Assembly (NCBI GenBank): GCA_964019135.1
Contig: OZ025257.1
Span: forward strand, 27,822,352-27,886,351
Length of the DNA stretch: 64,000 nucleotides
Source: Arenicola marina
Lineage: Eukaryota; Annelida; Polychaeta; Arenicolidae
Direction of reading: 5' to 3'
Under the pieces are notes generated by a model. That model was given only the letters and a program-made list of their open reading frames with translations. It did no database searches and was not told the origin of the DNA. Both the position numbers and the translations under genes were made by a program. Positions within the stretch are counted from its first letter, which is position 1, and each line of letters begins with the position of its first letter. This document shows positions 1 to 62,802 of the stretch, one piece after another.

Positions 1-3000
1 GAGAGGGTGACGACAAGAGAACGTCCGGTGCAGGGAGTGTGACGACAAGAGACCGTCTGGTGCAGGGAGTGTGACGACAAGAGACCGTCTGGTGCAGAGA
101 GGGTGACGACAAGACACCGTCTGGTGCAGGGAGTGTGACGACAAGAGACCGTCTGGTGCAGAGAGGGTGACGACAAGAGACCGTCTGGTGCGGAGAGGGT
201 GACGACAAGAGACCGTCTGGTGCAAAGAGGGTGACGACAAGACACCGTCTGGTGCAGGGAGTGTGACGACAAGAGACCGTCTGGTGCAGAGAGGGTGACG
301 ACAAGAGACCGTCTGGTGCAGAGAGGGTGACGACAAGACACCGTTTGGTGCAGAGGGTGTGACGATAAGAGACCGTCTGGTGCAGAGAGGATGACGACAA
401 GAGACCGTCTGGTGCAAAGAGGGTGACGACAAGACACCGTCTGGTGCAGGGAGTGTGACGACAAGAGACCGTCTGGTGCACAGAAGGTGACGACAAGAGA
501 CCGTCTGGTGCAGGGAGTGTGACGACAAGAGACCGTCTGGTGCAGAGAGGGTGACGACAAGAGACCGTCTGGTGCAGAGAGGGTGACGACAAGACACCGT
601 CTGGTGCAGAGAGGGTGACGACAAGAGAACGTCTGGTGCAGGGAGTGTGACGACAAGAGACCGTCTGGTGCAGGGTGTGTGACGACAAGAGACCGTCTGG
701 TGCAGGGAGTGTGACGACAAGAGACCGTCTGGTGCAGAGAGGGTGACGACAAGAGACCGTCTGGTGCAGAGAGGGTGACGACAAGACACCGTCTGGTGCA
801 GGGAGTGTGACGACAAGACACCGTCTGGTGCAGGGAGTGTGACGACAAGAGACCGTCTGGTGCAAAGAGGGTGACGACAAGAGACCGTCTGGTGCAGAGA
901 GTGTGGCTACAAGAGACCGTCTGGTGCACAGAGGGTGACGACAAGAGACCGTCCGGTGCAGAGATTGTGACGACAAGAGACCGTCTGGTGCAGAGAGTGT
1001 GACGACAAGAGACCGTCTGGTGCAGAGAGTGTGACGACAAGAGACCGTCTGGTGCAGAGAGGGTGACGACAAGAGACCATCTGGTGCAGAGAGGGTGACG
1101 ACAAGACACCGTCTGGTGCAGGGAGTGTGACGACAAGAGACCGTCTGGTGCCGGGAGTGTGACGACAAGAGACCGTCTGGTGCAGAGAGGGTGACGACAA
1201 GAGACCGTCTGGTGCAGAGAGTGTGACGACAAGACACCGTCTGGTGCAGGGAGTGTGACGACAAGAGACCGTCTGGTGCAGAGAGTGTGACGACAAGAGA
1301 CGGTCTGGTGCAGAGAGGGTGACGACAAGAGACCGTCTGGTGCAGCGAGGGTGACGACAAGAGACCGTCTGGTGCAGAGAGGGTGACGACAAGACACCGT
1401 CTGGTGCAGGGAGTGTGACGACAAGAGACCGTCTGGTGCAGAGAGGGTGACGACAAGAGACCGTCTGGTGCAGAGAGTGTGACGACAAGAGACGGTCTGG
1501 TGCAGAGAGGGTGACGACAAGACACCGTCTGGTGCAGGGAGTGTGACGACAAGAGACCGTCTGGTGCAGGGAGTGTGACGACAAGAGACCGTCTGGTGCA
1601 GGGAGTGTGACGACAAGAGACCGACTGGTGCAGGGAGTGTGACGACAAGAGACCGTCTGGTGCAGAGAGGGTGGCGACAAGAGACCGTCTGGTGCAGAGA
1701 GGGTGACGACAAGACACCGTCTGGTGCAGGGAGTGTGACGACAAGACACCGTCTGGTGCAGGGAGTGTGACGACAAGAGACCGTCTGGTGCAGAGAGGGT
1801 GACGACAAGAGACCGTCTGGTGCACAGAGGGTGACGACAAGACACCGTCTGGTGCAGGGAGTGTGACGACAAGAGACCGTCTGGTGCAGAGAGTGTGACG
1901 ACAAGAGACGGTCTGGTGCAGAGAGTGTGACGACAAGAGACCGTCTGGTGCAGCGAGGGTGACGACAAGAGACCGTCTGGTGCAGAGAGGGTGACGACAA
2001 GACACCGTCTGGTGCAGGGAGTGTGACGACAAGAGACCGTCTGGTGCAGAGAGGGTGACGACAAGAGACCGTCTGGTGCAGAGAGTGTGACGACAAGAGA
2101 CCGTCTGGTGCAAAGAGGGTGACGACAAGACACCGTCTGGTGCAGGGAGTGTGACGACAAGAGACCGTCTGGTGCAGAGAGTGTGGCGACAAGAGACCGT
2201 CTGGTGCAGAGGGTGTGACGACAAGAGACCGTCTGGGGCACAGAGGGTGACGACAAGAGACCGTCTGGTGCAGAGAGTGTGGCTACAAGAGACCGTCTGG
2301 TGCACAGAGGGTGACGACAAGAGACCGTCCGGTGCAGAGAGTGTGACGACAAGAGACCGTCTGGTGCAGAGAGTGTGACGACAAGAGACCGTCTGGTGCA
2401 GAGAGTGTGACGACAAGAGACCGTCTGGTGCAGAGAGGGTGACGACAAGAGAACGTCCGGTGCAGGGAGTGTGACGACAAGAGACCGTCTGGTGCAGGGA
2501 GTGTGACGACAAGAGACCGTCTGGTGCAGAGAGGGTGACGACAAGACACCGTCTGGTGCAGGGAGTGTGACGACAAGAGACCGTCTGGTGCAGAGAGGGT
2601 GACGACAAGAGACCGTCTGGTGCGGAGAGGGTGACGACAAGAGACCGTCTGGTGCAAAGAGGGTGACGACAAGACACCGTCTGGTGCAGGGAGTGTGACG
2701 ACAAGAGACCGTCTGGTGCAGAGAGGGTGACGACAAGAGACCGTCTGGTGCAGAGAGGGTGACGACAAGACACCGTTTGGTGCAGAGGGTGTGACGATAA
2801 GAGACCGTCTGGTGCAGAGAGGATGACGACAAGAGACCGTCTGGTGCAAAGAGGGTGACGACAAGACACCGTCTGGTGCAGGGAGTGTGACGACAAGAGA
2901 CCGTCTGGTGCACAGAAGGTGACGACAAGAGACCGTCTGGTGCAGGGAGTGTGACGACAAGAGACCGTCTGGTGCAGAGAGGGTGACGACAAGAGACCGT

Positions 3001-4612
3001 CTGGTGCAGAGAGGGTGACGACAAGACACCGTCTGGTGCAGAGAGGGTGACGACAAGAGAACGTCTGGTGCAGGGAGTGTGACGACAAGAGACCGTCTGG
3101 TGCAGGGTGTGTGACGACAAGAGACCGTCTGGTGCAGGGAGTGTGACGACAAGAGACCGTCTGGTGCAGAGAGGGTGACGACAAGAGACCGTCTGGTGCA
3201 GAGAGGGTGACGACAAGACACCGTCTGGTGCAGGGAGTGTGACGACAAGACACCGTCTGGTGCAGGGAGTGTGACGACAAGAGACCGTCTGGTGCAAAGA
3301 GGGTGACGACAAGAGACCGTCTGGTGCAGAGAGTGTGGCTACAAGAGACCGTCTGGTGCACAGAGGGTGACGACAAGAGACCGTCCGGTGCAGAGATTGT
3401 GACGACAAGAGACCGTCTGGTGCAGAGAGTGTGACGACAAGAGACCGTCTGGTGCAGAGAGTGTGACGACAAGAGACCGTCTGGTGCAGAGAGGGTGACG
3501 ACAAGAGACCATCTGGTGCAGAGAGGGTGACGACAAGACACCGTCTGGTGCAGGGAGTGTGACGACAAGAGACCGTCTGGTGCCGGGAGTGTGACGACAA
3601 GAGACCGTCTGGTGCAGAGAGGGTGACGACAAGAGACCGTCTGGTGCAGAGAGTGTGACGACAAGACACCGTCTGGTGCAGGGAGTGTGACGACAAGAGA
3701 CCGTCTGGTGCAGAGAGTGTGACGACAAGAGACGGTCTGGTGCAGAGAGGGTGACGACAAGAGACCGTCTGGTGCAGCGAGGGTGACGACAAGAGACCGT
3801 CTGGTGCAGAGAGGGTGACGACAAGACACCGTCTGGTGCAGGGAGTGTGACGACAAGAGACCGTCTGGTGCAGAGAGGGTGACGACAAGAGACCGTCTGG
3901 TGCAGAGAGTGTGACGACAAGAGACGGTCTGGTGCAGAGAGGGTGACGACAAGACACCGTCTGGTGCAGGGAGTGTGACGACAAGAGACCGTCTGGTGCA
4001 GGGAGTGTGACGACAAGAGACCGTCTGGTGCAGGGAGTGTGACGACAAGAGACCGACTGGTGCAGGGAGTGTGACGACAAGAGACCGTCTGGTGCAGAGA
4101 GGGTGGCGACAAGAGACCGTCTGGTGCAGAGAGGGTGACGACAAGACACCGTCTGGTGCAGGGAGTGTGACGACAAGACACCGTCTGGTGCAGGGAGTGT
4201 GACGACAAGAGACCGTCTGGTGCAGAGAGGGTGACGACAAGAGACCGTCTGGTGCACAGAGGGTGACGACAAGACACCGTCTGGTGCAGGGAGTGTGACG
4301 ACAAGAGACCGTCTGGTGCAGAGAGTGTGACGACAAGAGACGGTCTGGTGCAGAGAGTGTGACGACAAGAGACCGTCTGGTGCAGCGAGGGTGACGACAA
4401 GAGACCGTCTGGTGCAGAGAGGGTGACGACAAGACACCGTCTGGTGCAGGGAGTGTGACGACAAGAGACCGTCTGGTGCAGAGAGGGTGACGACAAGAGA
4501 CCGTCTGGTGCAGAGAGTGTGACGACAAGAGACCGTCTGGTGCAAAGAGGGTGACGACAAGACACCGTCTGGTGCAGGGAGTGTGACGACAAGAGACCGT
4601 CTGGTGCAGAGA
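1..4612 (+). repeat. Higher-order duplication, 2,432 bp (76 monomers)
   Basis: Positions 1-2,180 recur almost base for base at 2,433-4,612, an offset of exactly 2,432 bp or 76 monomers. Rare marker variants fall at matching places: the ACGTCCGG monomer at 1 and 2,433, and GAGATTGTGA at 961 and 3,393. The copies diverge after 2,180/4,612, where the first has GTGTGGCGAC and the second GGGTGACGAC. Confidence 0.93.
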
Positions 4613-7600
4613 GGGTGACGACAAGAGACCGTCTGGTGCAGAGAGGGTGACGACAAGACACCGTCTGGTGCAGAGGGTGTGACGACAAGAGACCGTCTGG
4701 TACAGAGAGGGTGACGACAAGAGACCGTCTGGTGCAGAGAGGGTGACGACAAGACACCGTCTGGTGCAGGGAGTGTGACGACAAGAGACCGTCTGGTGCA
4801 CAGAGGGTGACGACAAGAGACCGTCTGGTGCAGAGAGGGTGACGACAAGACACCGTCTGGTGCAGAGAGGGTGACGAGAAGAGAACGTCTGGTGCAGGGA
4901 GTGTGACGACAAGAGACCGTCTGGTGCAGGGAGTGTGACGACAAGAGACCGTCTGGTGCACAGAAGGTGACGACAAGAGACCGTCTGGTGCAGGGAGTGT
5001 GACGACAAGAGACCGTCTGGTGCAGAGAGGGTGACGACAAGAGACCGTCTGGTGCAGAGAGGGTGACGACAAGACACCGTCTGGTGCAGAGAGGGTGACG
5101 ACAAGAGACCGTCTGGTGCAGGGAGTGTGACGACAAGAGACCGTCTGGTGCAGAGAAGGTGACGACAAGAGACCGGCTGGTGCAGAGAGGGTGACGACAA
5201 GACACCGTCTGGTGCAGGGAGTGTGACGACAAGACACCGTCTGGTGCAGGGAGTGTGACGACAAGAGACCGTCTGGTGCAGAGAGGGTGACGACAAGAGA
5301 CCGTCTGGTGCAGAGAGGGTGACGACAAGCGACCGTCTGGTGCAGAGAGTGTGACGACAAGACACCGTCTGGTGCAGAGGGTGTGACGACAAGCGACCGT
5401 CTGGTGCAGAGAGTGTGACGACAAGACACCGTCTGGTGCAGAGAGGGTGACGACAAGAGACCGTCTGGTGCAGAGAGTGTGGCGACAAGAGACCGTCTGG
5501 TGCAGAGGGTGTGACGACAAGAGACCGTCTGGGGCACAGAGGGTGACGACAAGAGACCGTCTGGTGCAGAGAGTGTGACGACATGACACCGTCTGGTGCA
5601 GAGAGTGTGACGACAAGAGACCGTCTGGTGCACAGAGGGTGACGACAAGAGACCGTCTGGTGCACAGAGTGTGGCGACAAGAGACCGTCTGGTGCAGAGG
5701 GTGTGACGACAAGAGACCGTCTGGTGCACAGAGGGTGACGACAAGAGACCGTCTGGTGCAGAGAGTGTGACGACAAGAGACCGTCTGGTGCAGAGAGTGT
5801 GACGACAAGAGACCGTCTGGTGCAGAGAGTGTGACGACAAGAGACCGTCTGGTGCACAGAGGGTGACGACAAGAGACCGTCTGTTGCAGAGGGTGTGACG
5901 ACAAGAGACCGTCTGGTGCAGAGAGGGTGACGACAAGAGACCGTCTGGTGCAGAGAGTGTGACGACAAGAGACGGTCTGGTGCAGAGAGTGTGACGACAA
6001 GAGACCGTCTGGTGCAGAGAGTGTGACGACAAGACACCGTCTGGTGCAGAGAGTGTGACGACAAGAGACCGTCTGGTGCAGAGAGGGTGACGACAAGAGA
6101 CCGTCTGGTGCAGAGAGTGTGACGACAAGAGACCGTCTGGTGCAGAGGGTGTGACGACAAGAGAACGTCTGGTGCAGAGAGTGTGACGACAAGAGACCGT
6201 CTGGTGCAGAGAGGGTGACGACAAGAGAACGTCTGTTGCAGAGAGTGTGACGACAAGAGGCCGTCTGGTGCAGAGGGGGTGACGACCAGAAACCGTCTGG
6301 TGCAGAGAGTGTGACGACAAGAGACCGTCTGGTGCAGAGAGGGTGACGACAAGAGACCGTCTGATGCAGAGGGTGTGACGACAAGACACCGTCTGGTGCA
6401 GAGGGTGTGACGACAAGAGACCGTCTGGTGCATAGAGGGTGACGACAAGACACCGTCTGGTGCAGAGGGTGACGACAAGAGACCGTCTGGTGCAGAGAGT
6501 GTGACGACAAGAGACCGTCTGGTGCAGAGAGGGTGACGACAAGAGACCGTCGGGTGCAGGGGGTGTGACGACAAGAGACCGTCTGGTGCAGAGTCTGTGA
6601 CGACAAGAGACCGTCTGGTGCAGAGCGTGTGACGACAAGAGACCGTCTGATGCAGAGGGTGTGACGACAAGACACCGTCTGGTGCAGAGGGTGTGACGAC
6701 AAGAGACCGTCTGGTGCACAGAGGGTGACGACAAGACACCGTCTGGTGCAGAGGGTGACGACAAGAGACCGTCTGGTGCAGAGAGTGTGACGACAAGAGA
6801 CCGTCTGGTGCACAGAGGGTGACGACAAGACACCGTCTGGTGTAGAGGGTGACGACAAGAGACCGTCTGGTGCAGAGAGGGTGACGACAAGAGACCGTCT
6901 GGTGCAGAGAGTGTGACGACAAGAGACCGTCTGGTGCAGAGGGTGTGACGACAAGAGACCGTCTGGTGCAGAGAGTGTGACGACAAGAGACCGTCTGGTG
7001 CAGAGGGTGTGACGACAAGAGACCGTCTGGTGCAGAGAGTGTGACGACAAGACACCGTCTGGTGCAGAGAGTGTGACGACAAGAGACCGTCTCGTGCACA
7101 GAGGGTGACGACAAGACACCGTCTGGGGCAGAGTGTGACGACAAGAGACCGTCTGGTGCAGAGGGTGTGACGACAAGAAAATGTCTGGTGCACAGAGGGT
7201 GACGACAAGAGACCGTCTGGTGCAGAGGGTGTGACGACAAGAGACCGTCTGGTGCAGAGAGTGTGGCGACAAGAGACCGTCTGGTGCAGAGGGTGTGACG
7301 ACAAGAGACCGTCTGGTGCACAGACGGTGACGACAAGAGACAGTCTGGTGCAGAGGGTGTGACGACAAGAGACCGTCTGGTGCAGAGAGCGTGACGACAA
7401 GAGACCGTCTGGTGCAGAGCGTGTGACGACAAGACACCGTCTGGTGCAGAGGGTGTGACGACAAGAGAACGTCTGGTGCAGAGAGTGTGACGACAAGACA
7501 CCGCCTGGTGCAGAAAGTGTGACGACAAGAGACCGTCTGGTGCAGAAGGTGTGACGACAAGACACCGTCTGGTGCAGAGTGTGTGACGACAAGAGACCGT

Positions 7601-41364: not shown

Positions 41365-42052
41365 CACGGTGTGGGTTTTGCCGTCAAAAATAATTTGGCA
41401 AGAACAATCGAAACGCCTGTCGCAGTTTCTGAAAGAATGATGCCACTTCGCATGCAATCAAATGGGGCGTCCGCTACGATAATCAGCATATACGCTCCAA
41501 CCCTTTATGCTACCGCTGACGACAAAGACCGTTTTTATGACTCTGAGGGAGGTCATAAATCAGGCGCCAAAGGGCGATCATTTGTTCATTCTCGGGGATT
41601 TTAACGCACGCGTTGGGGATGACCATGGGTCTTGGCCGAGTTGCATAGGTCATTTTGGCGTTGGCAAGGTCAACGAGAACGGACAACGTTTATTGGACCT
41701 ATGCGCGCTGAGCGAACTCTGTATCACAAACACTTTTTTCCAAGGTAGTTTTAGGCATAAGGTGTCATGGCGCCACCCAAGGTCAGGTCATTGGCATCAG
41801 CTAGATCTGATCCTGGCAAAACGGCGAGATCTGTCCCGTGTCCTAAACACACGAGCGTATCACAGCGCAGATTGCGATACCGATCACTCGCTTGTCGGGA
41901 GCAGGGTAATGATTACCCCTAGAAAAATGTATACCACAAGACATAAATCTCAATCTCGGATTGACTCACTCGGCACGCAAGAGAGCGACAAGCGTCGTCT
42001 CTTTCGGCAAAAGTTGGAGCAGACGCTGCCAGCAAATCAAACAATCTTCTGA
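41365..42052 (+). pseudogene. LINE endonuclease domain (APE-type), frameshifted
   Basis: The N-terminal piece (41,365-41,545, one frame) reads HGVGFAVKN and IISIYAPTL, strand motifs of APE-like endonucleases. The next frame (41,507-42,052) continues with FILGDFNARVG (GDFN at 41,594), then WHQLDLIL and CDTDHSLV, the Asp-His pair at residues 126-127 of that piece. These match the metal-binding and catalytic motifs of LINE endonucleases that nick target DNA for target-primed reverse transcription. The shift between pieces lies around 41,541-41,548, where one base appears to be missing. A second shift near 42,040 separates this domain from the reverse transcriptase. Confidence 0.88.
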
Positions 42053-43595
42053 TGTAGAAGAATGCTGGGCGACGCTGCGCTCTGCCATTTACGGCGCTGC
42101 GTTGACATCGTTCGGGAAAATGAAATCTATCAACAAGGATTGGTTCGCCACTCACTCAGCAGAGATGGAACCTGTTATTGAAGCCAAAAATGAAAAACAC
42201 ATACAACACAATCAATATCCGACAAACACGTCTCTGTTAGAGCTGAGGCTGGCGAGAAATGCAGTTCAAAAAGCCGCGCGTTACTGCGCCAATCAGTACT
42301 GGATAAGACTTTGCGAGGAGATCCAGGAGGCGTCTGATAGAGGGAATATGCGGGCAATGTATACCGGAATTAAGAAAGCCCTGGGCCCCAAGGTCACTAA
42401 AACAGCCCTCTTAAAGTCACTTGATGGCGAGGTGATTACGGATCGTAGCAAGCAGCTGTCTCGCTGGGTGGAACACTATGTCTCATTGTACGCGCACGAG
42501 TCTCATGTATCGGCAACGGCGCTTGACGCATTACCCCGACTGCCGGTCATGAACGATCTGGACAGAGTTCCCTCAGTTCGCGAGCTGAGTGATGCAATCG
42601 ATTCATTGGGCAGCGGAAAATCGCCTGGCAACGACAGGATTCCCGCTGAAGTAATAAAGTGTGGGAAAACTATGTTGCTCCCTCACCTTCACCAACTTCT
42701 CGTCCTTTGCTGGAACAACGGTATTGTTCCACAGGACATGCGTGATGCGAATATAGTTACACTCTACAAAAACAAAGGAGACCGGGGTGATTGTAACAAT
42801 TACCGCGGAATATCACTCTTAAGTGTTACTGGTAAGCTCTTCGCCAGAATTGCCTTAAAGAGACTGCAACTCCTTGCACATAGAGTATATCCGGAAGCGC
42901 AGTGTGGATTCAGATCCGGAAGATCGACTGTTGACATGATATTTTCGTTGCGTCAACTTCAAGAGAAATGTAGAGAACAATACAAGCCCCTCTACCTTGC
43001 TTTTGTTGATCTTACCAAGGCTTTTGATACTGTCAGCAGATCTGGCTTGTACAAAATCTTGGAGTCTATTGGGTGCCCCCGCAGACTACTTAACCTTATC
43101 CGCTCCTTTCATGAACACTCGTTCAGCACAGTACAGTTCGACGGAGCAACGTCCGAGAGCTTCCAAGTCAGAAATGGCGTGAAGCAGGGTTGTGTTCTTG
43201 CGCCAACTTTATTTGGCATCTTCTTCTCTATGCTTCTTTCTCACGTATTTATTGAGGATGCGGAGGGTGTTTACTTGCACACCAGATCTGATGGGAAGCT
43301 GTACAACCTTTCAAGGTTGCGCGCTAAGTCAAAGCGGAGGCGCTTCCTAATAAGAGAACTGCTATTCGCTGACGACGCAGCGTTGGTTGCGCACTCAGAA
43401 AGCCAGCTACAGAGACTCATGGATCGGCTCTCAAATGCGTGTACTTTATTTGCTTTGACTATTAGTGTTCAAAAAACAGTCGTGCTGAGCCAAGGGGCTA
43501 TCACACCGCCAGTGATTACCCTTAACAACATGCCTTTAGAGGTGGTTAATAAGTTTTGTTACCTGGGAATAATCTATCCCTGGACGAGGAAATAA
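41961..43595 (+). pseudogene. LINE reverse transcriptase domain
   Basis: An open stretch of 544 codons. The real domain begins near residue 30, after the frameshift. RT motifs follow in order: GKSPGNDRIPAEVIK, NYRGISLLSVTGKLFARI, CGFRSGRSTVDMIF, FVDLTKAFDTV (catalytic Asp about residue 350), GVKQGCVLAPTLFGIFF, and FADDAALVA (residues 469-472 are FADD, DNA 43,365-43,376). The catalytic aspartates are intact, so the damage is only in the frame. The frame ends after FCYLGI, where a shift near 43,568 moves the continuation to another frame. Confidence 0.93.
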
Positions 43596-48110: not shown

Positions 48111-48239
48111 GTATAGTGGAGCAGATAAGGGTGTTTTTTTAGCGGAATCGTTCACATTGTGAGACAAGCACCAAATTTGGCATAGACGATCCCCTGGGAC
48201 TAGTTTTCTAAAAAAGCCCGTTAGCCACTCAAATTTCTA

Positions 48240-48706
48240 AAATGGCGGCCATTTTTTAAGATGGCCGCCATTTTCACCATAAAAATACGATTTTCGCTGT
48301 TAAAGTTGACTGAGTAGTCCGACTTTAATGATTTTTGATGTCGATTTATGTGTTATAGACCACGCTAAAACCGAATTGCAGATCTTAAAATCAAAATGGC
48401 TGCCATTTTTGAAGATAAGATGGCCGCCAATTTCATCATAAAAATACGATTTTCGCCGTTAAAGTTCACTGAGTAGTCCGACTTTATTGATTTTGATGTC
48501 GATTTATATGTTTTAGACCACGCTAAAAACGAATTTCCAGGTCTTAAAACCGAAATGGCTGCCATTTTTGAAGATAAGATGGCCGCCAATTTCATCATAA
48601 AAATATGATTTTCGCCATTAAAGTTGACTGAGTAGTCCGACTTTAGTTATTTTGATGTCGATTTATATGTTTTAGACCACGACAAACCCGAATTAGCAGA
48701 TCTTAA
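48240..48706 (+). repeat. Subterminal tandem repeats in the left TIR
   Basis: Three units carrying GATGGCCGCCA (48,260, 48,419, 48,588) and ACTGAGTAGTCCGACTTTA. They are the inverse of the units in the right TIR at 50,244-50,800. The unit contains its own small palindrome (AAAATGGC-GGCCATTTT). Confidence 0.88.
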
Positions 48707-49144
48707 GGTCATCAGAGAACTGTTATACCATTTCAATATCGTTTATTTCCAAAAAGTACATATATAGAGTCATACAATATTACAAGATGAATACCAGTTT
48801 AACATAGAATAAAATAAAATGTCCCGCACTATTTAAAGGATACTAAGTAAAGTGCCCTTGATCTGCACAGAAACCGTGTCTATGTTTTGGCGCTAACAGA
48901 ATGCCAATATGCACTTAATTATCATTTATTCTGTCCATATGAGGCCATATGTCCGATAAGATAACTATTATCTATGGCATGCGTTGCCCACGTGTCATTC
49001 TTGGGAGTTAATATGATCCACTGAAACTATCCACGACAATGCGGGCTAGTTCTCACATCTGCAACTGCACAAAGCTGTGCAGAGTAAAACCAAAACGATA
49101 GCACTTGCACCTGCTACAGCATTCTGTTTTGCAGCCACATTTTG

Positions 49145-50162
49145 TCATCTGTGCAATTGGTGGAAGCTTTGTCCAGAAGGTCTGCCACGTTTCACCTTGT
49201 TTCGTCCATCCCTAGTCAGCAGGACTTCGTGTATCAGTCTCGCACGCTGCCTGGCCCCATATGCACCCTGCCTGGTAGGCGGACCGCTTGGCGTGCTGAA
49301 AGAGGGCTGCTCGAATTGGTGGAATGGCTTCGTAAGGTCTCTGCTTTCGTGCAAACATGCACTGGACCTGTCATACAGTGTGATTACAAACATCTCGAGA
49401 ATCTTCAGGTCTTCGTCTTCCACCACTGGTATGTAATGACTGAGTTTTCTGAGGACATCCCAGGTTTGCCATGCAGTCTTCTTCCTTTTCCCACGAAAAG
49501 GCCGACACAACATCACAACCAGTGAAGACATGAAAGAAGAGAATGCCCTTTGTCTTCTCTGGTCCAACGGAGAGGGTGAGATCATGAATGAGAATCCACT
49601 GCAGGTTCTGTCCCCGACCAAACGCAATCCACAGCTTCTCCAGACTAATGTTCTGCAAGGCTGACAGAACACTGACTGCTATGACTAGAACATCTGTGGC
49701 ATTTGCTTTGATCGTGATAACTTTGCCCTAGTCTGCCTTCAGACGGGATGATCGGTAGAGATCAAACACAACTTCTGTCCATTTGTACTTGGCAGAATAT
49801 GCTTGTAATGTAGGGAACACGTCTAAGGTTGCATATTCTTCAAACGTCCTTGAGGTACGGGGTGGTAAGGAGTGCACCAAGGCTGAACCGTCAATGATGA
49901 TGACATCATCATCTGGTTCCGCGTGTGGAAGTGTAGAATGAGCCTGAAGAATAACAGCAAGCTGGTACTTCTGACATGTGTGGAGTTTTCCACTGTCACT
50001 TAATGCAGCGGGGTAAGATTGGTTCTCATGTCGAAAGAACTCCCGCAGGTCACACTCTTTGGACTGGCAGGATATGAACAACTCGGAGAAGAGATGATAG
50101 TCCTCTTTCAGAAACTTTTTTCTTTGGATCGCCAGAAGCCTGTTATTCATCGCCTTGTACAA
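49145..50162 (-). pseudogene. Broken transposon gene with XPG/FEN-like nuclease motifs
   Basis: Read on the minus strand from 50,162, a 144-codon piece contains LFSELFISCQSKECDLREFF, then IIIDGSALVH (Asp 91) and VVFDLYRSSRLKAD (Asp 134). These resemble the two N-terminal acidic motifs of FEN1/XPG nucleases. A TAG at 49,725-49,727 follows. The same frame resumes with TDVLVIAV and FHVFTGCDVVSAF (the GCD motif), then a one-base shift in a T-run near 49,488 moves the rest (RGKRKKTAWQTW, LKILEMFVITLYDRSS) to another frame. Relatives in other animal genomes, as I remember them, have some 150 residues between the VFD and DTDV motifs, including an E-A-D motif. They are missing here, so this is an internal deletion derivative and inactive. 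Confidence 0.75.
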
Positions 50163-50243
50163 TTGTCTTCGTTCTCAAAGAATACTCGTTGAGCCGTTCT
50201 CTCTGCTCATGGTGTCTGCCGCGTTCGTTTGCATCTTTAGCTA

Positions 50244-50800
50244 CATCAAAATAATTAAAGTCTGACTACTCAGTCAACTTTAATGGCAAAATTATTTTTT
50301 ATGCTGAAATTGGCGGCCATCTTGAAAAATGGCAGCCATTTTGATTTTAAGATCTGGAAATTCGGTTTTGGCGTGGTCTAAAACATATAAATCGACATCA
50401 AAATCATTAAAGTCGGACTACTCAGTCAACTTTAACGGCGAAAATCGTATTATTATGGTAAAATGGCGGCCATCTTGAAAAATAACAGCCATTTTGATTT
50501 TAAGATCTGGAAATTTGGTTTTGGCGTGGTCTAAAACATATAAATCGACATCAAAATCATTAAAGTCGGACCACTCAGTCTACTTTAACGGCGAAAATCG
50601 TATTTTTATGGTAAAATGGCGGCCATCTTGAAAAATGGTAGCCATTTTGATTTTAAGATCTGGAAATTCGGTTTTGGCGGGGTCTAAAACATATAAATCG
50701 ACATGAAAATCTTTAAAGTTGGACTACTCAGTCAATTTTAACGGCGAAAATCGTATTTTTATGATGAAAATGGCGGCCATTTTGCATTTTTAAGTGGCTA
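50244..50800 (-). repeat. Subterminal tandem repeats in the right TIR
   Basis: Four units of about 153 bp (TGGCGGCCAT at 50,311, 50,464, 50,617 and 50,771), the inverse of the left array. The right side has one more unit than the left and is more uniform in length. Confidence 0.88.
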
Positions 50801-50900
50801 ACGGGCTTTTTTTATAAACTAGACCCAGGGGAACGTCCTTGCCAAATTTGGTGCTTGTCTCACAACTGAACGATTTTTTCACGTATCTGCTCCACTAGTA

Positions 50901-51968: not shown

Positions 51969-54900
51969 GGGACATGAGAGAGGCGAGGTGGGGTCTAAGA
52001 GAGGGTGGTGGGCGGATGGGTGAGTGAGGGGGGACATGAGAGAGGCGAGGTGAGGTCTAGGGGAGGGTATATGGGTTTATGGGTGGAGACATGAGAGAGG
52101 CGAGGTGGGGTCTGGGCGAGGGCATATAGGTTTATGGGTGGAGACGTGTGAGAGGCGAGGTTTGGTCTGGGGGAGGGTATATGGCTATATGGGTGAGGAC
52201 ATGTGAGAGGCGAGGTGGGGTCTGGGGGAGGGTAGATGGGTATATGGATTGGAACATGTGAAAGGCGAGGTGGGGTCTGGGGGAGGGTATGTGGGTTTAT
52301 TGGTTGGGACACGAGAGAGGCGAGGTGGGGTCTGGGGGAGGGTAAATGGGTTGGGACATATGAGAGCGGTCTGGGGGAGGGTATATGGGTTTATGGGTTG
52401 GGACGCGAGAGAGGCGAGGTGGGGTCTCGGGGAGGGTATATGGGTTTATGGGTGGGGACGTGTGAGAGGCGAGGTGGGGTCTGGGGCAGGGTATATGGGT
52501 TTATGGGTGGGGACGTGTGAGAGGCGAGGTGGGGTCTGGGGGAGGGTATATGGGTTTATGGGTGGAGACATGAGAGAGGCGAGGTGGGGTCTGGGGGAGG
52601 GTATATAGGTTTATGGGTGGGGACGTGTGAGAGGCGAGGTTTGGTCTGGGGGAGGGTATATGGCTATATGGGTGAGGACATGTGAGAGGCGAGGTGCGGT
52701 CTAGGGGAGGGTATATGGGTATATGGGTTGGAACATGTGAGAGGCGAGGTGGGGTCTGGGGGAGGGTATGTGGGTTTATTGGTGGAGACATGTGAGAGGC
52801 GAGGTGGGGTCTCGGGGAGGGTAAATGGGTTGGGACATATGAGAGCGGTCTGGGGGAGGGTATATGGGTTTATGGGTTTGGACGCGAGAGAGGCGAGGTG
52901 GGGTCTCGGGGAAGGTAAATGAGTTTATGGGTTGGAACATGTGAGAGCCGAGGTTTGGTCTGGGGGAGGGTATATGGGTATATGGGTATATCGGTTGGAA
53001 CATGTGAGAGGCGAGGTGGGGTCTGGGGGAGGGCTTATGGGTATATTGGTGGGGACACGAGAAAGGCGAGGTGGGGTCTGGGGGAGGGTATATGGGTTTA
53101 TGGGTGGGGACGTGTGAGAGGCGAGGTGGGGTCTAGGGGAGGGTATATGGGTTTCATGGCTGGGGACGTGTGAGAGGCGAGGTGGGGTCTGGGGGAGGGC
53201 ATATAGGTTTATGGGTGGGGACGTGTGAGAGGCGAGGTTTGGTCTGGGGGAGGGTATATGGCTATATGGGTGAGGACATGTGAGAGGCGAGGTGGGGTCT
53301 GGGGGAGGGTATATGGGTATATGGATTGGAACATGTGAGAGGCGAAGTGGGGTCTGGGGGAGGGTATATGGGTTGATGATTTGGGACGCGAGAGAGGCGA
53401 GGTGGGGTCTCGGGGAGGGTATATGGGTTTATGGGTGGGGACGTGTGAGAGGCGAGGTGGGGTCTGGGGGAGGGTATATGGGTTTATGGGTGGGGACGTG
53501 TGAGAAGCGAGGTGGGGTCTAGGGGAGGGTATATGGGTTTATGGCTGGGGACGTGTGAGAGGCGAGGTGGGGTCTGGGGGAGGGTATATGGGTTTATGGG
53601 TGGAGACATGAGAGAGGCGAGGTGGGGTCTGGGGGAGGGTATTTAGGTTGATGGGTGGGGACGTGTGAGAGGCGAGGTTTGGTCTGGGGGAGGGTATATG
53701 GCTATATGGGTGAGGACATTTGAGAGGCGAGGTGGGGTCTGGGGGAGGGTATATGGGTATATGGATTGGAACATGTGAGAGGCGAGGTGGGGTCTGGGGG
53801 AGGGTATATGGGTTTATGGGTGGAAACATGAGAGAGGCGAGGTGGGGTCTGGGGGAGGGTATATAGGTTTATGGGTGGGGACGTGTGAGAGGCGAGGTTT
53901 GGTCTGGGGGAGGGTATATGGCTATATGGGTGAGGGCATGTGAGAGGCAAGGTGCGGTCTAGGGGAGGGTATATGGGTTGGAAAATGTGAGAGGCGAGGT
54001 GGGGTCTGGGGGAGGGTATATGGGTATATGGATTGGAACATGTGAAAGGCGAGGTGGGGTCTGGGGGAGGGTATGTGGGTTTATTGGTTGGGACACGAGA
54101 GAGGCGAGGTGGGGTCTGGGGAAGGGTAAATGGGTTGGGACATATGAGAGCGGTCTGGGGGAGGGTATATGGGTTTATGGGTTTGGACGCGAGAGAGGCG
54201 AGGTGGGGTCTCGGGGAAGGTATATGAGTTTATGGGTTGGAACATGTGAGAGGCGAGGTTTGGTCTGGGGGAGGGTATATGGGTATATGGGTATATCGGT
54301 TGGAAGATGTGAGAGGCGAGGTGGGGTCTGGGGGAGGGTTTATGGGTATATTGGTGGGGACACGAGAAAGGCGAGGTGGGGTCTGGGGGAGGGTATATGG
54401 GTTTATGGGTGGGGACGTGTGAGAGGCGAGGTGGGGTCTAGGGGAGGGTATATGGGTTTATGGCTGGGGACGTGTGAGAGGCGAGGTGGGGTCTGGGGGA
54501 GGGTATATGGGTTTATGGGTGGAGACATGAGAGAGGCGAGGTGGGGTCTGGGGGAGGGCATGTAGGTTTATGGGTGGGGACGTGTGAGAGGCGAGGTTTG
54601 GTCTGGGGGAGGGTATATGGCTATATGGGTGAGGACATGTGAGAGGCGAGGTGGGGTCTGGGGGAGGGTATATGGGTATATGGATTGGAACATGTGAGAG
54701 GCGAGGTGGGGTCTGGGGGAGGGTATATGGGTTGATGATTTGGGACGCGAGAGAGGCGAGGTGGGGTCTCGGGGAGGGTATATGGGTTTATGGGTGGGGA
54801 CGTGTGAGAGGCGAGGTGGGGTCTGGGGGAGGGTATATGGGTTTATGGGTGGGGACGTGTGAGAGGCGAGGTGGGGTCCAGGGGAGGGTATGTGGGTTTA

Positions 54901-57900
54901 TTGGTTGGGACACGAGAGAGGCGAGGTGGGGTCTGGGGGAGGGTAAATGGGTTGGGACATATGAGAGCGGTCTGGGGGAGGGTATATGGGTTTATGGGTT
55001 GGGACGCGAGAGAGGCGAGGTGGGGTCTCGGGGAGGGTATATGGGTTTATGGGCGGGGACGTGTGAGAGGCGAGGTGGGGTCTGGGGGAGGGTATATGGG
55101 TTTATGGGTGGGGACGTGTGAGAAGCCAGGTGGGGTCTGGGGGAGGGTATATGGGTTTATGGGTGGAGACATGAGAGAGGCGAGGTGGGGTCTGGGGGAG
55201 GGTATATAGGTTTATGGGTGGGGACGTGTGAGAGGCGAGGTTTGGTCTGGGGGAGGGTATATGGCTATATGGGTGAGGACATGTGAGAGGCGAGGTGGGG
55301 TCTAGGGGAGGGTATATGGGTATATGGGTTGGAACATGTGAGAGGCAAGGTGGGGTCTGGGGGAGGGTATGTGGGTTTATTGGTTGGGACACGAGAGAGG
55401 CGAGGTGGGGTCTGGGGGAGGGTATATGGGTTTATGGGTGGGGACATATGAGAGGCGAGGTGGGGTCTGGGGGAGGGTATATGGGTTTATTGGTGGGGAC
55501 ACGAGAGAGGCGAGGTGGGGTCTGGGGGAGGATATATGGGTTGGGACATGTGAGAGGCGAGGTTTGGTCTGGGGGAGGGTATATGGCTATATGGGTGAGG
55601 ACATGTGAGAGGCGAGGTGGGGTCTAGGGGAGGGTATATGGGTATATGGGTTGGAACATGTGAGAGGCGAAGTGGGGTCTGGGGGAGGGTATGTGGGTTT
55701 ATTGGTTGGGACACGAGAGAGGCGAGGTGGGGTCTGGGGGAGGGTATATGGGTTGGGACATGTGAGAGCGGTCTGGGGGAGGGTATATGTGTTTATTGGT
55801 GGGGACATGTGAGAGGCGAGGTGGGGTCTCGGGGAGGGTATATGGGTTTATGGGTGGGGACATATGAGAGGCGAGGTGGGGTCTGGGGGAGGGTATATGG
55901 GTTTATTGGTGGGGACACGAGAGAGGCGAGGTGGGGTCTGGGGGAGGATATATGGGTTGGGACATGTGAGAGGCGAGGTGGGGTCTGGGGGAAGGTATAT
56001 GGGTATATGGGTTGGAACATGTGAGAGGCGAGGTGGGGTCTGGGGGAGGGTATATGGGTTTATGGGTGGGGACATGTGAGAGGCGAAGTGGGGTCTGGGG
56101 GAAGGTATATGGGTTGGGACATGTGAGAGGCGAGGTGGGGTCTGCAGGAGGGTATATGGGTTTATTGGTGGGGACACGAGAGGTGCGAGGTGGGGTCTTG
56201 GGGAAGGTATATGAGTTTATGGGTTGAAACATGTGAGAGGCGAGGTTTGGTCTGGGGGAGGGTATATGGGTGTATGGGTATATCGGTTGGAACATGTGAG
56301 TGGCGAGGTGGGGTCTGGGAGAGGGTTTATGGGTTTATTGGTGGGGACACGAGAAAGGCGAGGTGGGGTCTGGGGGAGGGTATATGGGTATATGGGTTGG
56401 AACATGTGAGAGGCGAAGTGGGGTCTGGGGGAGGGTATATGGGTTTATGGGTGGGGACCTGTGAGAGGCGGGGTGGGGTCTGGGGCGGGTATATGGGTTT
56501 ATGGGTGGGGACATGTGAGAGGCGAGGTGGGGTCTGGGGGAAGGTATATGAGTTGGGACATGTGAGAAGCGAGGTGGGGTCTGGGGGAGGGTATATGGGT
56601 TTATGGGTGGGGACATATGAGAGGCGAGGTGGGGTCTGGGGGAGGGTATATAGGTTTATGGGTGGGGCCGTGTGAGAGGCGAGGTTTGGTCTGGGGGAGG
56701 GTATATGGCTATATGGGTTGAGACATGTGAGAGGCGAGGTGCGGTCTGGGGGGGTATATGGGTATATGGGTTGGAACATGTGAGAGGCGAGGTGGGGTCT
56801 GGGGGAGGGTATATGGGCTTATGGGTGGGGACATGTGAGAGGCGAGGTGGGGTCTGGGGGAGGGTATATAGGTTTATCGGTGGGGCCGTGTGAGAGGCGA
56901 GGTTTGGTCTGGGGGAGGGTATATGGCTATATGGGTTGGGACATGTGAGAGGCGAGGTGCGGTCTGAGGCGGGGGGGGTATATGGGTATATGGGTTGGAA
57001 CATATGAGAGGCGAGGTGGGGTCTGGGGGAGGGTATGTGGGTTTATTGGTGGGGACACGAGAGAGGCGAGGTGGGGTCTGGGGGAGGATATATGGGTTGG
57101 AACATATGAGAGGCGAGGTGGGGTCTGGGGGAGGGTATGTGGGTTTATTGGTGGGGACACGAGAGAGGCGAGGTGGGGTCTGGGGGAGGATATATGGGTT
57201 GGGACATGTGAGAGGCGAGGTGGGGTCTGGGGGAGGGTACATGGGTTTATTAGTGAGGACACGAGAGAGGCGAGGTGGGGTCTGGGGGAGGGTATATGGG
57301 TATATGGGTTGGAACATGTAAGAGGCGAGGTGGGGTCTGGGGGAGGGTATACGGGCTTATGGGTGGGGACATGTGAGAGGCGAGGTGGGGTCTGGGGGAA
57401 GGTATATGGGTTGGGACATGTGAGAGGCGAGGTGGGGTCTGGGGGAGGGTATATTGGTATATGGGTGGGGACATGAGAGAGGCGAGGTGGGGTCTGGGGG
57501 AGGGTATATGGGTATATTTGTTGGAACATGTGAGAGGCGAGGTTTGGTCTGGGGGAGGGTAGATGGATTTATGGGTGGGGACACGTGAAAGGCGAGGCGG
57601 GGTCTGGGGGAGGGTATATTGGTTTATGGGTGGAGACATGTGAGAGGCGAGGTTTGGTCTGGGGCAGGGTATATTGGTATATGGGTGGGGACATGAGAGA
57701 GGCGAGGTGGGGTCTGGGGAGGGTATATGGGTTGGAACATGTGAGAGGCGAGGTGGGGTCTGGGGGAGGGTATATGGGTTTATTGGTGGGGACACGAGAG
57801 AGGCGAGGTTTGGTCTGGGGGAGGGTATATGGGTATATGGGTTGGAACATGTCAGAGGCGAGGTGGGGTCTGGGGGAAGGTGTATGGGTTGGGACATGTG

Positions 57901-58458
57901 AGAGGCGAGGTGGGGTCTGGGGGAGGGTATGTGGGTTTATGGGTGGGGACATGTAAGAGACGAGGTGGGGTTTGGGGGAGGGCATATAGGTTTATGGGTT
58001 GGGAACGTGAAAGGCGAGGTGGGGTCTGGGGGAGGGTATGTAGGTTTATGGGTGGGGATATGTGACAGTCGAGGTTTGGTCTGGGGGAGGGTATATTGGT
58101 TTATGGGTTGGGACATGTGAGAGGCGAGGTGGGGTCTGGGGGAGGGTATATAGGTTTATGGGTGGGGATATGTGACAGTCGAGGTTTGGTCTGGGGAAGG
58201 GTATATTGGTTTATGGGTTGGGAAATGTGAGAGGCGAGGTGGGGTCTGGGGGAGGGTATATTAGTTTATGGGTGGGGACATGTGAGAGGCGAGGAGGGGT
58301 CTGGGGGAGGGTATATGGGTTTATGTGTGGGGACATGTGAGAGGCGAGGTGGGGTCTGGGGGAGGGTATGTAGGTTTATGGGTGGGGACATGTGAGAGGC
58401 GAGGTGGGGTCTGGAGGAGGGTATATGGGTTTATGGGTTGGGACATGTGGGAGGCGAG
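51969..58458 (+). repeat. Intron 1 minisatellite A, 55-bp unit, about 118 copies
   Basis: Units contain GGACATGTGAGAGGCGAGG, then TGGGGTCTGGGGGAGGG and TATATGGGTTTATGGG. The array starts about 55 bp after the exon 1 donor. Variants alternate between TTTATGGG, TATATGGG and shorter forms. Each typical unit has four or more G-runs with loops of 1-5 bases, so it meets the usual G-quadruplex pattern on the transcript-sense strand. Because 55 is not a multiple of three, frames rotate; the many Pro-rich minus and Gly-rich plus frames are not genes. Confidence 0.96.
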
Positions 58459-59320
58459 CCTCAAACCTCACACCAAGACATTACCCCCAAATCACACATC
58501 AAACGCCACCCCCGGACTCCGGCCCCTGACCTCACCCTAAGACGTTACCCCCAATTCCTCACCAAACGCCACCCCCGGACTCCAGCCCCTGACCTCACCC
58601 TAAGACGTTGCCCCCAATTTCTCACCAAACGCCACTCCCGGACTCCAGCCCCTGACCTCACCCAAAGACGTTACCCCCAATTCCTCACCAAACGCCACCC
58701 CCGGACTCCAGCCCCTGACCTCACCCTAAGACGTTACCCCCAAATCCTCACCAAACGCCACCCCCGGACTCCAGCCCCTGACCTCACCCTAAGACGTTAC
58801 CCTCAAATCCTCACCAAACGCCACCCCCGGACTCCAGCCCCTGACCTCACCCTAAGACGTTACCCTCAAATCCTCACCAAACGCCACCCCCGGACTCTAG
58901 CCCCTGACCTCACCCTAAGACGTTACCCCCAAATCCTCACCAAACGCCACCCCCGGACTCCAGCGCCTGACCTCACCCTAAGACGTTACCCCCAAATCCT
59001 CACCAAACACCACCCCCGGACTCCAGCCCCTGACCTCACCCTAAGACGTTACCCCCAAAGTCCTCATCAAAACGCCACCCCCGGACTCCAGCCCCTGACC
59101 TAACCCTAAGGCGTTACCCCCAAAGCCCTCGTCAAACGCCACCCCCGTACACCAGCCCCTGACCTCACCCCAAGACGTTACCCCCAAACTCTCATCAAAC
59201 GCCACCGCCGGACTCCAGCCCCTGACCTCACCCCAAGACGTTACCCCCAAAGCCTTCATCAAACGCCACCCCCAAAGCCCTCATCAAACGCCACCCCTGG
59301 ACTCCAACCCCTGACATCAG
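58459..59320 (+). repeat. Intron 1 minisatellite B, 63-bp unit, about 13 copies
   Basis: Units contain GCCACCCCCGGACTCCAGCC, CTGACCTCACCCTAAGACG and TTACCCCCAAATCCTCACC, spaced 63 bp (for example 58,505 and 58,568). The array abuts minisatellite A directly but is C-rich on the same strand. Since 63 is 21 codons, one plus frame stays open for 221 codons; this reflects the unit length and is not evidence of coding. Confidence 0.95.
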
Positions 59321-60950: not shown

Positions 60951-61292
60951 ATTCGGTGTCTGTGTGTCTTTCTGTTTGTAACGCATCATCGCATTATATG
61001 TCGAATGTCTTAAGATATCGACTCCCAACATTACTGAAAGATGGCGATCGGCAGGCTGTTCGTAGGACAAGGCCCCGTCAAGGGCACACTAATTTTCTGA
61101 AATTCGGTTAACCATTGATTGATAGGACCAACAATATAGATAGTGCTATAACGTATACAGTTTTCACTTAATCAAGCTTGAAGATATTTCACGTATTGGG
61201 CCCAAAGATACCTTATATACCATCTTTAAATTTTGCAAATTGCCGGAATAGTTTTTCGGCAAAGAGATTAAGATGGGACCCTACGATACCAT

Positions 61293-62570
61293 TTAGACGG
61301 GTGGGTGGTGGGACGTGACTTGTGGTGGACGGGTGAGTGGTGGGACGTGACTTGTGGGGGACGGGTGAGTGGTGGGACGTGACTTGTGGTGGACGGGTGA
61401 GTGGTGGGACGTGACTTGTGGGGGACGGGTGAGTGGTGGGACGTGACTTGTGGTGGACGGGTGAGTGGTGGGACGTGACTTGTGGGGGACGGGTGAGTGG
61501 TGGGACGTGCCTTGTGGTGGACGGGTGAGTGGTGTGACGTGACTTGGGGTGGACTGGTGAGTGGTGGGACGTGACTTGAGGTGGACGGGTGAGTGGTGTG
61601 ACGTGACTTGTGGTGGACGGGTGAGTGGTGTGACGTGACATGGGGTGGACTGGTGAGTGGTGTGACGTGACTTGAGGTGGACGGGTGAGTGGTGTGACGT
61701 GACTTGTGGTGGACGGGTGAGTGGTGGGACGTGACTTGTGGTGGACGGGTGAGTGGTGTGACGTGACTTGTGGTGGACGGGTGAGTGGTGTGACGTTACA
61801 TGGGGTGGACTGGTGAGTGGTGTGACGTGACTTGTGGTGGACGGGTGAGTGGTGGGACGTGACTTGTGGTGGACGGGTGAGTGGTGGGACGTGACTTGTG
61901 CTGGACAAGTGAGTGGTGGGACGTGACTTGTGGGGGACGGTGAGTGGTGGGACGTGACTTGTGGTTGGACGGGTGAGTGGTGTGACGTGACTTGTGGGGG
62001 ACGGTGAGTGGTTCGACGTGGCTTGTGGTGGACGGTGAGTGGTGGGACGTGACTTGTGGTGGACGGGTGAGTGGTGGGACGTGACTTGTTGTAGAGGAGT
62101 GAGTGGTGGGACGTGACTTGGGGTGGACGGGTGAGTGGTGGAACGTGACTTGTGGTGGACGGGTGAGTGGTGGGACGTGACTTGTTGTAGAGGAGTGAGT
62201 GGTGGGACGTGACTTGGGGTGGACGGGTGAGTGGTGGAACGTGACTTGTGGTGGACGGGTGAGTGGTGGAACGTGACTTGTTGTGGACGGGTGAGTGGTG
62301 GGACGTGACTTGTGGTGGACGGGTGAGTGGTGGAACGTGACTTGTTGTGGACGGGTGAGTGGTGGGACGTGACTTGCGGTGGACGGGTGAGTGGTGGGAC
62401 GTGCATTGTGGTGGACGGGTGAGTGGTGGGACGTGACCTTTGGTGGACGGGTGAGTGGTGGGACGTGACTTGTGCTGGACAAGTGAGTGGTGTGACGTGA
62501 CTTGTGGTGGACGGGTGAGTGGTGGGACGTGACTTGTGGTGGACGGGTGAGTGGTGGGACGTGACTTGGT
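61293..62570 (+). repeat. Intron 3 minisatellite D, 32-bp unit, about 40 copies
   Basis: Units contain GGACGGGTGAGTGGTGGGAC and GTGACTTGTGG, spaced 32 bp (for example GGGTGAGT at 61,331 and 61,363). Variants replace GTGG with GGGG or TTGT. A few units lose one or two bases. Each unit includes G|GTGAGT in sense orientation. The minus strand is nearly stop-free (a 523-codon frame), again because of the repeat. Confidence 0.96.
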
Positions 62571-62733
62571 ATGAGTGGGCCGACCCCCTCCCCACCCCGC
62601 CCTGTCCCAATAAGTTGTAGTGCCGTCTGCAGGAAGCCGTTAAAGATGCACCAACCCCCTTTCCCGTCTCCACTGCCGATCCCTTTGCTGTGCTGTTCTT
62701 GGAGTCTGTCTGATTAATGGCTGTTCCTTGCAG

Positions 62734-62802
62734 GCGACGACTGTCGTGACGGAGACGAAGGTCGTGTATGTGCCAGACCCTCACATTGCCGTGACGTCAT
62801 AG
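62734..62802 (+). CDS. MS4A-like protein, exon 4 (C-terminal tail and stop)
   Basis: The acceptor TGTTCCTTGCAG precedes ATTVVTETKVVYVPDPHIAV, then TS and a TAG at 62,800-62,802. Exon 3 ends in phase 0, so the tail joins in frame. The 22-residue cytosolic tail is short for the family and contains a single tyrosine (VVYVPDP). No canonical AATAAA was seen in the next 400 bp. With ATG 51,366 the protein is about 301 residues; with the spliced alternative start it is about 204. Confidence 0.8.
   Translation, partial: ATTVVTETKVVYVPDPHIAVTS

Follow-up and report, generated by a model that had tools for sequence, protein, structure and literature searches.

AcademX transposons carry an XPG-like nuclease. 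The lineage goes back to Kojima 2020, Mob DNA 11:15. A 2023 paper gives AcademH target-site duplications of 9 or 10 bp and AcademX duplications of 3 or 4 bp, and ties this difference to the encoded helicase and nuclease (PMC10045372); in the same text Zator likewise makes a 3-bp duplication. Academ is counted among the DDD/E-transposase superfamilies where another paper lists these (PMC9587614), and a third reports a mean length of 5,565 bp for curated bivalve Academ elements (PMC10294476). The locus considered here lies in a stretch of 64,000 nucleotides (nt) of the polychaete Arenicola marina (contig OZ025257.1, positions 27,822,352 to 27,886,351), hereafter the window. It holds a transposon copy of 2,784 bp at 48114-50897, which very probably belongs to a family of cut-and-paste DNA transposons of AcademX type and is itself dead, internally deleted and non-autonomous. 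The family illustrates an established transposon type well and does not define a new one.

The window copy and its dispersed family

The copy starts with TAGTGGAGCAGATA and finishes with TATCTGCTCCACTA at 50897, and exact GTA triplets on both flanks form a 3-bp target-site duplication (Table 1). As expected of AcademX, the ends are terminal inverted repeats, and they are built from tandem units. A scan of the forward strand with a 26-nt unit core, allowing at most 6 mismatches, placed three cores on the left (48302, 48461 and 48620; spacing 159 bp) and four in inverse orientation on the right (50256, 50408, 50561 and 50714; spacing 152-153 bp); when the bases of the 64-kb window were shuffled, five times over, the same settings gave zero matches. 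A sequence-only reading of the window had proposed the element, its coordinates and the duplication, and all of these are real, as are the three and four units that it counted. Its end lengths of about 540 and 650 bp were right for the right end (about 655 bp) but too short for the left (about 600 bp).

Copies of the same family are scattered through the 867-Mb genome. When the outer left end served as query, at least 171 candidate places were found, and the 40 that were scored are 92-100% identical over most of the query. This search gave 58 rows; longer regions were studied for the window and 26 of the other scored places (L009-L034), which leaves 13 aside. One more copy, L035, was found by protein search and lies outside the 40 scored places. 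Both ends are readable in 25 of these 28 sequences and only one in L022, L024 and L029. L022 and L024 had been considered as long copies and were ruled out, each having a single end within the 9.9 kb fetched. A matching 3-bp duplication, within the 3-4 bp of AcademX, flanks 22 of the 25 copies with both ends, and a 4-bp duplication flanks none of them. L035 excluded, the copies measure 1.0 to 3.6 kb, and the first 18 short copies (window included) have 1-5 units on the left and 2-4 on the right.

A fuller copy and the two halves of the gene

The gene remnant of the window copy lies on the minus strand, is split over several frames, and contains the IIIDG, VVFD and GCD motifs noticed earlier. 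When its first nuclease piece was used as query, at least 87 rows were obtained from 118 candidates, and L035 was spotted among them through an open frame of 602 amino acids (aa). It is a 5,822-bp element with termini as in the window copy; GTT duplications flank it, and each end has a single repeat unit. Its gene, also on the minus strand, is spread over overlapping frames of 840 and 602 aa, decayed yet nearly complete; inspection by eye gives the order of two Cys/His motif pairs resembling zinc fingers, a region with DNID, ADQP and DQ..E, and an XPG/FEN-like part. The prediction of an active relative elsewhere is borne out in so far as a longer element with the same ends exists, but no intact active copy of the window family was found, L035 being decayed.

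The D...D...E pattern is conserved upstream of the nuclease in L035, L036, L038 and L043. The order of the two halves is retained in L036, a single 967-aa frame, and in L043, where 966 aa were read within a frame for which the search gives 1,600 aa and 24% identity. L043 covers part of C13:12936330, which together with C13:36457108, C3:49760934 and C1:12350631 makes up a set of distant relatives with 24% identity and open frames of 1,520-1,600 aa. Since these four form two equal-score pairs, they suggest that an Academ-like family in a more intact state has been copied recently. A separate observation concerns L037 (C399:126200-130500), where positions 148-1647 form an unbroken 500-aa frame with a nuclease and a Cys-rich part. 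No DDE-like frame was present on the gene strand in the 2.6 kb fetched upstream, among frames of at least 90 aa. L037 would be a decayed copy, although a gene standing on its own is conceivable.

The second half of the gene is predicted to be an XPG/FEN-like nuclease, as the earlier reading held. The nuclease half of a relative was modelled, and 49 of the 50 structural matches listed for it are 5'-nucleases; a nuclease is also encoded by AcademX. The motifs include counterparts of the metal-binding acids of FEN1. Sequence searches of the PDB with phmmer (a window piece and the L035 half) and with a profile gave only weak unrelated matches (best E value 0.53). A tblastn search of phages with one nuclease piece gave no match, and a search of viral contigs with a piece of L028 found no relative.

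Compared by BLAST with the 5,822-bp copy, the window copy is without L035 bases at about 1338-1613, 2041-2250 and 2349-5607; the first of these gaps agrees with the deleted gene middle noted before. L010 is 99.2% identical to it over the nuclease region and carries the two smaller deletions too. The window copy has KANATDV against KANDTDV in L035, an alanine thus replacing the first aspartate of NDTD. At the Cys-rich end, the equivalent frame of L036 gives a weak Tesmin/TSO1 CXC match below the Pfam cut-off (E value 0.48).

Table 1. Positions in the window of the transposon copy's borders, gene remnants and deletion points
Feature	Positions	Strand	Type
Left target-site duplication, GTA	48111..48113		
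Left terminal inverted repeat, three tandem units, 159-bp spacing	48114..48711	+	
Remnant, C-terminal Cys-rich (CXC-like) end of nuclease gene	49053..49211	-	Open reading frame
Remnant, C-terminal part of XPG/FEN-like region, separate frame	49145..49678	-	
XPG/FEN-like core remnant with KANATDV and FTGCDVV motifs	49371..49727	-	
Site of internal deletion (about 276 bp of L035, HEEAD motif included); common to L010	49722..49725		
XPG/FEN-like core remnant with IIIDG and VVFD motifs	49731..50174	-	
Site of second internal deletion (about 210 bp of L035); common to L010	50146..50148		
Founder deletion junction; about 3.26 kb of L035 (zinc-finger-like and DDE-like half) gone	50242..50243		
Right terminal inverted repeat, four tandem units, 152-153-bp spacing	50243..50897	-	
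Right target-site duplication, GTA	50898..50900		

Origin of the short copies and alternative readings

Mapping by BLAST, with overlapping pieces thinned and L027 not included, shows that most short copies are without L035 bases at roughly 2349-5607, which correspond to the zinc-finger-like and DDE-like half. The join is identical in 14 fetched sequences, window included, and the breakpoints lie at most 12 nt away in 6 more. Because 20 of the 24 mapped short copies thus have that join or near breakpoints, a single founder deletion that spread is indicated; the other four (L009, L015, L016 and L025) have larger deletions. The alignment of L027 to the window continues through the founder junction. 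In one comparison of the copies, outer-end matches longer than 70 nt were used. The DDE-like half is rare: a search in which 54 of 227 candidates were scored, so that counts are lower bounds, returned 57 rows with only the source copy above 80% identity, the next being a 53-aa fragment at 72%. At least 45 of the 87 nuclease rows reach 80% identity or more, some copies giving two rows.

A mechanism can be proposed on this basis. The autonomous copy would encode a single protein whose zinc-finger-like N-terminus bound the element ends, and whose DDE domain, to judge by the superfamily, would have cleaved and joined these at a stagger of 3 bp. The FEN/XPG-like domain may have acted at ends or gaps to trim flaps or branched structures, as its fold would allow. 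The nuclease is most likely a partner domain, because a D...D...E region lies upstream of it in L035 and relatives and because Academ is counted among the DDD/E superfamilies. A deletion derivative, its ends intact but its transposase half lost, would have been moved in trans by the autonomous enzyme; that deleted copies share one join and carry duplications supports such movement. Meanwhile the end units would have expanded and contracted, and the leftover nuclease half would have decayed in the deleted copies. The varying unit number suggests that recombination or slippage was responsible for the changes at the ends.

Several points weigh against an AcademX-type family with a two-half gene. 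The placement draws on published features of AcademX; the copies were picked by likeness to the left end of the window element; three of 25 (L011, L020 and L031) are without a clean duplication; and only one fuller copy is known. The nuclease model has a mean predicted local distance difference test score (pLDDT) of 53.5, a value of 70 or more being reached by 126 of its 500 residues, and the modelled relative is 45-49% identical to the window pieces. No match to the Pfam XPG family was obtained for the window pieces or relatives, including 20 alignment rows. Structure prediction of the DDE-like half (9 rows) was poor, with a mean pLDDT of 35.8, and this half gave no match at cut-off to Pfam DDE or transposase families. 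The sole family hint, L043:2-2899 against Pfam DUF6589, stays below the cut-off (E value 2.1e-4; 20.6 bits versus 27). Since the model is poor and this hint is below cut-off, the DDE assignment draws on motifs and literature. The match is in itself a possible link of DUF6589, a family of unknown function, to Academ-like transposases; a literature search on the name found no paper.

One further proposal and three rival readings can be considered. The multi-unit ends might be an adaptation of the non-autonomous copies: additional units may recruit more transposase and so let deleted copies out-compete the copy that makes it, the FEN-like domain supplied in trans then resolving branched DNA at the ends. 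The single unit per end of L035, set against 1-5 left and 2-4 right units in 18 short copies, points in this direction, yet we regard this whole proposal as unlikely.

Somewhat less probable still is that the family belongs to another superfamily with 3-bp duplications, for instance Zator or an EnSpm/CACTA-like group, and acquired a nuclease gene. EnSpm/CACTA-like elements make 3-bp duplications. A duplication of this size is not specific, as Zator illustrates (PMC10045372). The reading is opposed by the missing Pfam transposase match of the DDE-like half at cut-off and by the nuclease and DDE-like halves, which share one frame in diverged families too and so disfavour a recent pick-up of the nuclease.

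It is very improbable that nuclease-only short copies were kept by selection for a functional or regulatory truncated protein, such as a repressor of the type represented by KP of the P element. The nuclease half does persist in many copies, and the ratio of non-synonymous to synonymous differences among nuclease halves (pN/pS) is 0.79, a little below one, as calculated for 23 of 25 sequences (L009 and L016 offered too little) with codons containing gaps or stops skipped. Differences that predate the founder deletion can by themselves bring this ratio below one, however, and 19 of 22 short copies have in-frame stops when read in the L035 frame, with frameshifts as well. FEN-type motif residues were moreover lost by different routes in two groups of short copies.

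That the XPG/FEN-like protein alone is the mobility enzyme of a non-DDE transposon is the reading to which we give least credence: short copies hold the nuclease half at most, its core is predicted to have a 5'-nuclease fold, and the other half is DDE-like by motif. Against this, none of 24 short copies (L027 not included) retains all FEN-type motifs, 20 of 24 have one common deletion as expected from movement in trans, a D...D...E half lies upstream in L035 and diverged relatives, and Academ is listed as DDD/E (PMC9587614). The sequence-only suggestion that the mobility protein differs from DDE transposases is therefore not supported.

The AcademX-type reading thus remains the preferred one, and with it one such animal family is documented in detail. 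Its gene joins transposase-like and FEN/XPG-like halves, an order that even relatives of about 24% identity retain, and a founder deletion derivative lacking the transposase half has spread. We know of no test of the role of the FEN-like domain in transposition. The distant relatives in the Arenicola marina genome, with open frames of about 1,450-1,600 aa, could serve to probe this role.

Surroundings and comparison with known systems

Positions 1-39753 of the window form a very long tandem satellite with repeats like HQTVSCRHTLCTRRSLVVTLSAPDGLLSS. Its minus strand has no stop over as many as 9,822 codons; this most likely reflects stop-free repeat units rather than a gene. Adjoining it, at 41483-43592, are open reading frames that by eye resemble a LINE retrotransposon (an endonuclease-like GDFNARVGDD, then a 560-aa frame). 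The stretches at 53963-59100 and 61216-62796 also resemble minisatellites, and long frames are open there on either strand.

Several described systems invite comparison. AcademH shares the superfamily; it has duplications of 9 or 10 bp and a helicase in the account of PMC10045372, as opposed to 3 bp here. A Pfam scan of two L035 and three L036 open reading frames found no helicase family, in a search that misses the nuclease too. The 5'-nucleases FEN1, XPG, EXO1 and XRN resemble the family nuclease in predicted core fold. They differ in that the latter is part of a transposon gene and has no Pfam XPG match, and in that the window copy is without the HEEAD stretch and has its substitution in NDTD. 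KolobokP, likewise a transposon of eukaryotes, combines a DDD/E transposase with another nuclease, but this is a His-Me finger homing endonuclease (PMC9587614). From AcademX the window copy differs by its internal deletions, its multi-unit ends and a nuclease half that is the only one left and is broken. The 3-bp duplication, the inverted ends and the nuclease gene are shared, the D...D...E pattern would fit a DDD/E superfamily (PMC10045372, PMC9587614), and the features in the former paper narrow the Academ-like label of the first reading to AcademX. The mean length reported for bivalve Academ elements (PMC10294476) is likewise near the 5.8 kb of L035.
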